From Oscillospiraceae bacterium (GTDB lineage: Bacteria; Bacillota; Clostridia; UMGS1810): 64,000 bases of DNA. The stretch lies in contig SVJU01000001.1 of the NCBI GenBank assembly GCA_015068825.1, forward strand, positions 62,001 through 126,000. Reading direction: 5' to 3'. Of the stretch, positions 1,520-57,807 are shown in pieces (within the stretch, counting starts at the first letter, position 1; every line of letters begins with the position of its first letter). The position numbers and the translations under genes are program-made. Under the pieces are notes generated by a model. That model saw only the letters and a program-made list of their open reading frames with translations. It did not search any database and had not been told where the DNA came from.

Positions 1520-2425
1520 ATGTATGACATTATAATTGTGGGTGCAGGGCCGGCAGGATTAACCGCTGCCCTGTACGCTCTAAGAGCAAATAAATCGGTT
1601 CTTGCAATAGAAAAAGCTTCTTTTGGCGGACAGATTACATTTTCGCCAAAGGTAGAAAACATACCCGGGTTTATGCCGCTTTCGGGAAATGAATTTGCCG
1701 AAAAAATGGTTGAACAGGTTTTGGCGCTTGGTGCAGAGTTTGAATGCTGTGAGGTTGAAAAAATAATAGACGGTGATGTTAAAAAAGTTGTTACCGACTG
1801 TGGCGAATTTGAAGCCAGAGCAGTTATTATTGCAACAGGTGCAAAGCACAGAATGCTTGGTATTGAAGATGAAGAAAAATTTGTGGGTGAAGGAATTTCG
1901 TTTTGCGCAGTTTGCGACGGAGCTTTTTATAAAGATAAATGCGTTGCAGTAATCGGTGGTGGAAATTCAGCACTTCAGGAAGCAATACTTCTATCTGACC
2001 TTGCAAAAAAGGTGTATGTTGTTCAGAATCTTGACATTCTTACAGGTGAAAAAAAGCTTAGCGACCAGCTTTATGCAAAGAAAAATGTTGAAATAATTTT
2101 AAATTCGGTTGTAAAAGGCATTATAGCATCAAATGAATTTGAAGGAATAAAAATTTTAAATTCAAAAGATAATACCGAAAGCGAAATTAAAGTAGATGGA
2201 ATGTTTGTTGCAATAGGGCTTGTTCCGCAGAATGAACCGTTTGCCGAAATTGTAAATTTAAATGATTACGGATATGTTGTAGCCGACGAAAACTGCGTAA
2301 CCAATGCAAAAGGAATTTTTGTTGCAGGTGATTGCAGAACCAAGAAAATACGTCAGGTTGCAACCGCTGCATCAGATGGTGCAACAGCCGCCCTTGCAGC
2401 TTGTGATTATATTGATAATTTATAA
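1520..2425 (+). CDS. trxB: Thioredoxin-disulfide reductase
   Basis: This 301-residue FAD enzyme passes electrons from NADPH to thioredoxin-type proteins. Visible are the N-terminal FAD motif GAGPAGLTAALYA, the redox CAVC at residues 129-132 followed by DG, the NADPH-binding GGGNSALQEA, and the C-terminal FAD motif GIFVAGDCR followed by RQVATAASDG. Length matches low-molecular-weight TrxB. It starts 13 bp after nrdD with an AAGGAT ribosome site, so the two are co-transcribed. The likely partner is the redoxin domain fused to NrdD immediately upstream. A strong terminator follows. Confidence 0.96.
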   Translation: MYDIIIVGAGPAGLTAALYALRANKSVLAIEKASFGGQITFSPKVENIPGFMPLSGNEFAEKMVEQVLALGAEFECCEVEKIIDGDVKKVVTDCGEFEARAVIIATGAKHRMLGIEDEEKFVGEGISFCAVCDGAFYKDKCVAVIGGGNSALQEAILLSDLAKKVYVVQNLDILTGEKKLSDQLYAKKNVEIILNSVVKGIIASNEFEGIKILNSKDNTESEIKVDGMFVAIGLVPQNEPFAEIVNLNDYGYVVADENCVTNAKGIFVAGDCRTKKIRQVATAASDGATAALAACDYIDNL

Positions 2426-2466: not shown

Positions 2467-2671
2467 ATTTAATGTTATTAGGGCAATCAAGAATAGTACA
2501 TTTTCTGCATTTTTCTTCGTTTATTTCTTGTATAAAACACATCATATAATCACATTCATCGCAGCAACATTCTATTAAATTTTTATTATCATCAAAATGC
2601 TCACCATTTCCTGAACAGTCTTTTCCCATATTTCCAGGAGTAAGTATAATTCCTGTTACATCAATAAGCAT
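2465..2671 (-). CDS. Small Cys-rich conserved-type protein
   Basis: This 68-residue protein of unknown function has an unmistakable ribosome site (AAGGAG, 8 nt before the ATG). It is cysteine-dense: a CCCDEC cluster, another Cys at YMMC, then CRKC and DCP near the C-terminus, nine Cys in all. The N-terminus IDVTGIILTPGN is hydrophobic but has no clear signal peptide. The Cys pattern suggests metal or Fe-S binding, or a small zinc-binding fold, but no motif settles it. It lies directly downstream of a structured leader that ends in an intrinsic terminator, so its expression is probably controlled by attenuation. Real gene: confident. Function: unknown. Confidence 0.85.
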   Translation of the reverse strand: MLIDVTGIILTPGNMGKDCSGNGEHFDDNKNLIECCCDECDYMMCFIQEINEEKCRKCTILDCPNNIK

Positions 2672-2685
2672 GGTTATTTCTCCTT

Positions 2686-2720
2686 AAAATAAAAAATGCG
2701 TCAGCAACAATGCCGACGCA
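2686..2720 (-). terminator. Leader terminator/attenuator before the Cys-rich gene
   Basis: On the minus strand, a 10-position stem with one mismatch (TGCGTCGGCA / TGCTGACGCA) and a TTGT loop is followed by TTTTTTATTTT. It sits between the structured leader and the AAGGAG site of the gene at 2671, the usual place of a transcriptional expression platform. Confidence 0.85.
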
Positions 2721-2841
2721 CGAAAAACGAAGCTTTGTTACTGTTGCGACACAGTCATACCAAATCAGGATATGATAACAAAAGCTTACGCTTTTACCAA
2801 GTGCAAACCTGATCTGGTTAAACTATTAAACTGTGTCGCAA
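2697..2841 (-). ncRNA. Candidate structured leader RNA (riboswitch-like) of the Cys-rich gene
   Basis: Read on the minus strand from the predicted start near 2840, the RNA opens with an 11-bp closing stem P1 (2831-2841 with 2744-2754, TTGCGACACAG and its exact complement). Inside are a 10-bp stem P2 (2808-2817 with 2760-2769, one G-U), an asymmetric internal loop, and a 6-bp stem P3 with a GTAA loop (2780-2795). About 23 nt later comes a terminator. The 3' strand of P1 (2740-2750) can instead pair with the terminator's 3' half (2700-2711) over 11 bp with one bulge, giving a mutually exclusive antiterminator. P1 formed would mean terminator formed, so this looks like an OFF switch. I do not recognise it as a known riboswitch class. 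Confidence 0.72.
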
Positions 2842-2846
2842 TTAAA

Positions 2847-2875
2847 AGTATATCATACATTGAAAATAAGGTCAA
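2847..2875 (-). promoter_or_regulatory. Sigma-A promoter of the structured leader
   Basis: Minus strand TTGACC (2870-2875), 17-bp spacer, TATACT (2847-2852). The expected start near 2840 coincides with the first base pairs of the closing stem, which supports the leader being a defined RNA. Confidence 0.85.
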
Positions 2876-2885
2876 GATTAAAATA

Positions 2886-3032
2886 AAAAGCCTCCCTTGT
2901 GTAAAGGGAGGTGGGTTTGCGTAGCAAACTCGGAGGGATTGTAATTGAATTAAAAAGAAGATTTTATAAAACAATCCCTCAGGCTCGCTTTCGTTCGCCA
3001 GCTCCCTTATGTACTACGGGAGCCTGATTTAT
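2886..3032. repeat. MITE-like palindromic intergenic repeat
   Basis: Two inverted arms of about 53 bp (2890-2942 and 2971-3024) are imperfect complements. Each is itself a pair of hairpins: CTCCC..GGGAG followed by a second small stem, ending in the shared core GAGGGATTGT. No ORF lies inside. This architecture fits a miniature inverted-repeat element. Its outer end (3000-3032, hairpin plus GGAGCCTGATTTAT) recurs at 47091-47124. Confidence 0.7.
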
Positions 3033-16984: not shown

Positions 16985-17044
16985 TTTAAAAAAATTACCT
17001 CACAGATTTTATCATAAAATGTATAAAACATTAAATTTTAAAAA

Positions 17045-17695
17045 ATAAGTGGTATTATACGAAGTAAAATTTACGGCTTAGGTTCAGTAGGATTTCCCAT
17101 AAGATTACCCCTTCGTCGCCAAAAGGGCAGTTTCCTTTTAAAACCTTATATATTTCGTCACCGAAAATATGACTGAATTGCCACTTAGTCCGCACTGCAA
17201 TCCCTCGTATAACACAGCCTAGGAGATTTCCTCAACAGTCAAATCAACTCTTAGCCTCTTTTGCAAGCACAGTTTCAAACCCTAAAACGATGCATTTATC
17301 TAACGGCCGGTTAGACAAAGCATCTGACGGTTATTCGCATATGTTCACTCAAGGCAGGCTACTCTGCTCACAGCGTATTGCTACCTACACCGCAAAACAG
17401 GTTACATCCTAAACCGTAACCAAAAAACCTTTAGCTAAGGAACCTGAGTGTTTCAAAGGCAAAATCACCCCTGATGAGTCAGGCCCTTTTCTAATTGTCA
17501 CGAGTTTAGGTCTCCACGGAAAAAGGGTCAACGCCCGCATGCCATTGCGGATCGCCCTTAATCCTTAACTCCCAGCATCTGCCCCAGACTGGGCGTAAGA
17601 AGCAAACACAAGGAACTTCATCGATATGCCCTTTAGTGGATTTTTAGGCCCACCTTACAAGCTGACCGATCTGACTAGGATACTGCACCACTTAT
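17045..17695 (-). ncRNA. ole: OLE RNA (ornate large extremophilic RNA)
   Basis: About 650 nt without a significant ORF, visibly richer in GC and structured elements than neighbouring spacers. The predicted ends pair: ATAAGTGGT at the 5' end (17687-17695) with ACCACTTAT at the 3' end (17045-17053), the latter followed by T-rich sequence. Length, the closing helix, a dedicated promoter, and position before oapA and dxs together match the OLE locus described in Bacillus halodurans and other Firmicutes. RNase P and tmRNA were considered: the GAGGAAAGUCC and ACAGAA signatures and a tRNA-like acceptor are absent. Primary-sequence consensus could not be checked here. Confidence 0.87.
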
Positions 17696-17700
17696 AATGT

Positions 17701-17729
17701 ATTTTAACACATTTTTTCAAAAAAGTAAA
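17701..17729 (-). promoter_or_regulatory. Sigma-A promoter of OLE RNA operon
   Basis: Minus strand TTTACT (17724-17729), 17-bp spacer, TAAAAT (17701-17706). The start near 17694 coincides with the 5' arm of the closing helix. Confidence 0.8.
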
Positions 17730-55276: not shown

Positions 55277-55337
55277 ACTATGCGTATGGGCAAATTTATT
55301 TGTTAAGGAGGATAGAAAAACAAAAATCAGATATTAA

Positions 55338-55540
55338 GCGCCAGGACCTTTTATTTTAAAGGTTGACGAGGATAAGGCTTATCGAAATTTTCGGCGGATG
55401 GTCTTACGCTTTGCACGAGCGATAGCAAATTTGAAAAACGCAGAGTAATTTGCGAACAAACAAATTTGCGGTGTTAAAAACCTTTCATATTTGCCCGATG
55501 AAATGTTTGTTTCGCAAAATCGGGATTTTTATGCCCAGAA
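55338..55540 (+). ncRNA. glmS ribozyme
   Basis: Self-cleaving ribozyme activated by glucosamine-6-phosphate. The 5' signature AGCGCC (cleavage expected between A55337 and G55338), the P2 stem CCTTT..AAAGG, TTGACGAGG, GGCTTATCGAAATTTTCGGCGGATG and a P4-like stem (CCCGAT..ATCGGG) all match the class. Lies in the leader of glmS, giving feedback control of amino-sugar synthesis. The 3' limit is approximate. Confidence 0.93.
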
Positions 55541-57579: not shown

Positions 57580-57604
57580 ACTTTTGTTAATACCTTTAGA
57601 AAGG

Positions 57605-57782
57605 TATTAGATAGAGGTGCATTAGTTATAAGTAGCATTTGCTTTTTCAGGAAATAAAGCATTTTGCAAAAGGAACTTAATGCCGAAGTAAAAGTTTCTG
57701 CTTTCCTGGTGCAAAGCTTTTGCTGGGACGATACAGAATATGTATCGTACTGTCACTGTTTGATGTGGAGCGCTATCTTATA
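57605..57782 (+). promoter_or_regulatory. Lysine riboswitch (L box)
   Basis: L-box landmarks in order: GATAGAGGTGC at 57610 (P1 5' side), AGGAAATAAAGC, GCCGAAG near 57680, TGCTGGGACGATAC, ACTGTCACTG, and TGTGGAGCGCTATC, where CTATC (57773-57777) closes P1 with GATAG (57610-57614). Lysine binding lowers expression of the downstream transporter. Confidence 0.93.
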
Positions 57783-57807
57783 ATTTTTAATATTATCTTA
57801 AAATATT

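Follow-up and report, generated by a model that had tools for sequence, protein, structure and literature searches.

A large unnamed family of riboswitch-like candidate conditional terminators in gut-type Clostridia

The leader of a small Cys-rich gene in the window (the whole stretch of DNA analysed here, 64,000 nucleotides from an Oscillospiraceae bacterium) is one member of a large, unnamed family of switch RNAs in gut-type Clostridia. The region is very probably a copy of a family of cis-acting conditional transcription terminators. As far as its predicted structures tell, the family is new and riboswitch-like in design: the first-pass annotation had proposed a leader of an undescribed, riboswitch-like kind whose terminator and antiterminator exclude each other, and comparison of the sequences supports it.

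All parts of the window copy lie on the minus strand. Its promoter consists of a -35 box, TTGACC (2875-2870), and, after a 17-nt spacer, a -10 box, TATACT (2852-2847). This spacing is kept across the family, and in 138 of 165 copies a distance of 5-6 nt separates the end of the -10 box from the first base of the model, in agreement with the annotated consensus promoter that starts the RNA at its closing helix. The conserved RNA spans 2691-2841 and matches the whole of our covariance model R1 with 90 bits. It opens with the closing helix P1, whose 5' strand UUGCGACACAGU (2841-2830) pairs with the 3' strand ACUGUGUCGCAA (2755-2744), as it does across the family; the helix had been recognised from the start, only its length needed correction from 11 to 12 bp. 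Two further interior helices had been announced and are present: P2 (11 bp, 2818-2808 with 2769-2759), seen in the fold and in the family pairing, and a third, apical hairpin. The conserved apical motif GGUAAAAGCGUAAGCUUU occupies 2781-2798. At its first A starts the 5' strand of a pseudoknot that had been overlooked; it joins 2795-2781 with 2736-2723, with pairing and covariation in the family. Its 3' strand, AAAGCUUCGUUUUU (2736-2723), is part of the linker between P1 and the terminator (2722-2743), for which the 5' arm and loop of the terminator are the alternative partner.

The intrinsic terminator was rightly placed ahead of the ribosome site. It has a 10-bp stem, with the 5' arm at 2711-2720 and the 3' arm at 2706-2697, followed by a U6 tract (2696-2691); both arms appear in the fold, and the corresponding family helix is paired in 98.8% of cells. 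The ribosome-binding site AAGGAGA (2685-2679) and an ORF of 68 amino acids, 9 of them Cys (2465-2671, with its ATG at 2671), come next. The fold of the window leader has a z-score of -6.1, and none of 200 shuffles was equally good. Searches of Pfam, NCBIfam and PHROG gave no match for the Cys-rich protein. On the 3' side of its ORF lies a bidirectional terminator-like hairpin (2433-2460, either strand), which the gene has in common with a convergent ORF (1520-2425, plus strand) that by eye resembles the gene of a thioredoxin-reductase-type flavoprotein.

A BLAST search with the window leader against its own genome returned more leaders, alike at their ends and differing in their middles; these further copies had also escaped the first reading. 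A second search, which started from a different copy, gave matches in 22 of 60 relatives. Model R1 was built from 25 copies, the window copy included, and the held-out copies L007, L019, L030, L032, L044 and L045 match it with E-values from 6e-18 to 1e-6. A search with R1 finds 9 copies in the genome of the window. Within the order to which that genome belongs, 15 of 16 genomes carry the RNA, in up to 14 copies, some of them in tandem. For the class Clostridia the RNA was found in at least 76 of 291 sampled genomes, a minimum, as are all counts from this sample, since at most nine candidates were scored per genome. A phylum sample of 299 genomes added none, its only match being in the window's own genome. 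Altogether, 203 copies from 55 genomes were examined.

Tandem groups of two or three copies, with a spacing of about 50-150 nt and standing before one gene or none, occur at L066 (1501-2082), L057 (1501-1885) and L113 (809-1280). Separately, Rfam identifies Gut-1 RNA at L033 (1238-1309, plus strand), within about 150 nt upstream of a family RNA, and at L022 (2211-2287, minus strand), about 570 nt from one.

The helices covary strongly among homologues, a check that the first-pass annotation had asked for. In alignment A3 (92 matches), which was fitted to the nested structure and leans towards it, 94.3% of cells are paired in that structure; double-sided changes number 652, compared to 163 in shuffles, and pairing falls to 35-55% when the partner is slid by 1-3 columns. 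P1 is paired in 97.8% of cells across the family and P2 in 93%, with double-sided changes at all 13 and all 11 pairs, respectively. The pseudoknot, absent from the covariance model used, is formed by the apical motif GGUAAAAAUGCAUGCUC and the linker GGAGCUAUGCAUUUUU, and is paired in 92.7% of cells. Its covariation amounts to 0.238, against 0.167 for shuffled and at most 0.09 for slid partners, and neighbouring pairs show compensatory types such as UA/CG, GC/AU and CG/UA. Five A-U pairs of the pseudoknot (A5/U5) do not covary, so this part of the helix rests on sequence conservation. A run of U lies 5' of the apical motif. From the invariant A5/U5 we would guess that a U.A-U triple is possible in the family RNA; SAM-V has such a triple (PMC6061858).

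For 135 non-redundant copies, duplex energies were calculated for each strand with its own partner and with the partners of other copies. In these swap tests, which control for composition and lineage and differ from a formal phylogenetic test, the own partner was better for P1, the terminator, the pseudoknot, P1-3' with terminator-3' and the linker with terminator-5' (p from 9e-11 to 7e-24, the latter for P1); two negative-control strand pairs stayed flat. With the swaps confined to one genome, so that lineage differences between genomes play no part, P1, the pseudoknot and both antiterminator pairings still favoured the own partner, with p = 1.5e-11 for the linker with the terminator 5' arm and loop. 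The linker therefore covaries with two partners, only one of which it can pair with at a time, and this provides strong evidence, at the level of sequence comparison, for a two-state conditional terminator.

In the window copy, the 5' strand of the antiterminator between P1-3' and terminator-3' (2741-2753) comprises the P1 3' strand and the next bases. It can pair with 2710-2697 over 13 bp with one bulged base, at -16.6 kcal/mol, compared to -18.1 kcal/mol for the terminator alone. This alternative helix was the central element of the first-pass annotation and has proved real: the P1-3' strand of the window copy finds a better partner in its own terminator than in that of any other member (rank 1 of 135). 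The window pseudoknot ranks 28 of 135, and the linker/terminator-5' pairing 19 of 135.

Antiterminator hairpin and terminator are similar in energy in the six copies inspected. Such a balance would also suit a fixed-ratio attenuator, in which the folds partition by kinetics alone and set an expression level with no signal involved; targets sharing no pathway would fit it as well. We find it quite improbable, however, as a conserved pseudoknotted domain of 150-200 nt far exceeds the needs of such a terminator.

We propose instead that each copy works as a conditional terminator, in a cassette made of a sigma-A-type promoter that would start the RNA at P1, a folded domain (P1, P2 and the apical loop), the linker and the terminator, with the gene usually expected about 20 nt behind. 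When the linker is paired with the apical motif in the pseudoknot and P1 is closed, the terminator 5' arm would be free, the terminator would form and transcription would stop. When the linker is paired with the terminator 5' arm, RNA polymerase would read into the gene; in most gene-linked copies this antiterminated state would be helped by pairing of the P1-3' strand with the terminator 3' half. A signal would shift the balance between the two states and, we infer, its binding would turn the gene off. Ligand binding and an OFF sign had both been put forward in the first-pass annotation; the sign would depend on which of the states the signal stabilises. Two features of riboswitches are found in these leaders, namely a conserved structured domain in the 5' leader upstream of a gene and an expression platform with mutually exclusive structures, the linker covarying with both of its partners.

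The placement of the copies points to control of genes. A ribosome-binding site and an ORF follow 126 of the 203 copies (about 62%), the distance from the terminator having a median of 20 nt, compared to 18/199 and 20/199 (about 10%) at two control positions. The Cys-rich protein family follows the RNA in several genera, including 6 of the 12 copies in genome G005. Other downstream proteins comprise DUF6809, AbrB-like and LytTR regulators, a HelD-like protein and many small unknowns, together with secreted proteins of the BspA-like leucine-rich-repeat, SLH, CHAP and copper-amine-oxidase-N types. At L177 (47-2149, minus strand) a family copy stands before the HelD-like protein, of an RNA polymerase recycling motor family; here the match was assigned to the ORF by eye.

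The first-pass annotation had suggested an analysis of homologues before genes for the same Cys-rich protein, and some of these genes do have the RNA: a relative of the Cys-rich protein in L007, from a sheep-rectum Clostridia MAG, carries the family RNA, and 9 of 10 relatives from named genomes (L008-L016) are without it. At L014, where the RNA is absent, the Cys-rich gene instead has a helix-turn-helix-type ORF on its upstream side in divergent orientation (2635-2886, minus strand); by eye, L010, L015 and L016 are arranged similarly.

The genes downstream of the family RNA share no common pathway and give no hint of a ligand. A metal or thiol signal, as could be read from the Cys-rich gene, is weakened by the other copies and is not indicated, because the RNA precedes dozens of unrelated proteins and is missing before nine relatives of the Cys-rich gene. 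The most likely signal, to which we give a little less than an even chance, would be a small molecule or an ion, with the pseudoknotted domain as its site of action; failing that, it would be an RNA, a protein or none. A protein, either an RNA-binding regulator or an antiterminator factor, could set termination from the pseudoknotted domain or the linker. The regulon-like scatter over unrelated genes would agree with this, as would the constraint on the sequence of the A5/U5 stretch and the conserved AAUA that follows P1, but no gene family consistently adjoining the RNA was found to encode such a factor, and we hold a protein signal to be unlikely.

Control of genes does not account for the whole family, because 28 of the 203 copies (about 14%) have no ORF; we call them class B. 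Among the copies sampled, they were found in 14 of 55 genomes. Behind the terminator, mostly 17-60 nt after it, these copies carry the reverse complement of the conserved P1-3'/linker region, and a strong hairpin then follows this tail in 26 of 28. Tail-like motifs are rare in control stretches (2/165). In class B the pseudoknot (p = 6e-8) is preserved, as is the pairing of linker and terminator-5' (p = 7e-6), but no pairing of P1-3' with terminator-3' could be detected (p = 0.35). We reject the idea that these are switch-dead copies, or simply constitutive terminators, because the linker/terminator-5' pairing is retained. Also rejected is a role of the tail as cis partner of its own copy, where the own tail was no better than swapped ones (p = 0.37).

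The tails are complementary to the family generally, at -19.8 kcal/mol compared to -12.3 kcal/mol for shuffled tails; the tail of L051 with the leader of L052, for example, reaches -43 kcal/mol. When eight genomes were ranked by the best target that they offer, 7 of 19 tails had their own genome in first place (p = 0.006). These observations are suggestive only, and the tails may have a role in trans. For some leaders the signal could then be another RNA: the read-through tail of class B would pair with them in trans and block the antiterminator, much as antisense RNAs attenuate the replication genes of plasmids. The antisense tails with their hairpins, their rarity in controls and the preferred own genome speak for this. 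Yet the preference is modest and could be explained by sequence types shared within a genome; mean tail-target energies are alike for own and other genomes (p = 0.91); most leader-bearing genomes lack a class B copy among those sampled; and the tail sits behind a terminator, its transcript being putative. On balance we think such a signal doubtful. A wider form of the idea would be an RNA-only chromosomal network, with gene-linked copies as conditional terminators and class B copies keeping the pseudoknot domain while their read-through tail is antisense to the control strand of same-genome copies; RNA would thus both sense and cross-regulate scattered promoter-RNA-gene cassettes. We take this to be distinctly unlikely. 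The antisense attenuators of pT181 and pIP501 resemble our family in that RNA pairing can free a terminator and in the complementarity of class B tails to the control strand of the leader. They differ in that the family is chromosomal and multicopy with an intrinsic covarying pseudoknot and antiterminator, and its pairing in trans is putative.

Whole cassettes can apparently be dispersed. L198 and L199, in one genome, are 94%-identical cassettes with sharp ends and unrelated flanks on both sides; they have in common the promoter, the RNA, the gene and the hairpin that follows, which suggests that entire cassettes can move or be copied. Together with the scattering of as many as 14 copies over a genome, this pair might suggest that the RNA is a mobile element or a repeat and regulates nothing. 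Divergence is strong among most copies, however, and even those of the same genome usually differ strongly yet retain compensatory pairs; placement before start codons is fixed. A phage or plasmid origin was rejected, with no match in phage or plasmid records and none in viral contigs for a conserved pattern of the RNA. Given the covariation and the gene-proximal placement, a purely mobile element is very improbable. As a separate observation, positions 2890-3000 of the window (AGGGAGC...GGGATTGT...ACAATCCCTC...GGGAGG) look like a dispersed repeat, and stretches similar by eye are seen upstream of L199, downstream of L092 and upstream of L005.

The annotated absence of a known class still stands. 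Rfam 15, scanned with the window and 20 loci, gave no match on the family RNA at the gathering cutoff, and permissive scans gave weak matches only, far below the cutoff. A T-box leader was rejected, as none of these sequences has an Rfam T-box match. Among openly accessible journal papers, searched for riboswitch candidates, for leaders in Clostridia and for the conserved letters, we found none that describes it. Elsewhere in the window, Rfam identifies a full-length OLE RNA (17033-17707, minus strand, 499 bits), a Lysine riboswitch (57604-57783, plus strand) and a glmS ribozyme (55326-55479, plus strand).

Pseudoknotted transcriptional riboswitches (preQ1, SAM-V) are likewise leader RNAs with a folded pseudoknot domain and, where transcriptional, a mutually exclusive terminator and antiterminator. 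In contrast to them, the present family has no Rfam match or known ligand, a promoter of its own for each copy, unrelated target genes and stand-alone copies. The c-di-GMP riboswitches (GEMM-I/II) can be present many times in one genome, ahead of diverse genes that include those of surface proteins. Our family is also multicopy before diverse genes, which we offer as an analogy only, and the Rfam scans revealed no resemblance of it to any model. Type III toxin-antitoxin systems (ToxIN) combine a promoter, a pseudoknot RNA, a terminator and a small gene. Unlike them, the family has one domain of 150-200 nt in place of short tandem repeats, and its downstream genes are not one endoribonuclease family. 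We rejected this assignment on the single long domain and on the lack of a ToxN-like family among the best 25 Pfam and best 25 NCBIfam families listed.

A structured RNA present in about a quarter of the sampled Clostridia genomes, at the least, thus has no Rfam entry. Should it prove to be a switch that senses a ligand, the targets scattered over these genomes would make up an unrecognised regulon in gut bacteria, including small Cys-rich and helical proteins, BspA-like surface proteins, AbrB-like and LytTR regulators and a HelD-like protein. The stand-alone copies, in turn, offer a direct way to ask whether families of leader RNAs regulate one another in bacteria.
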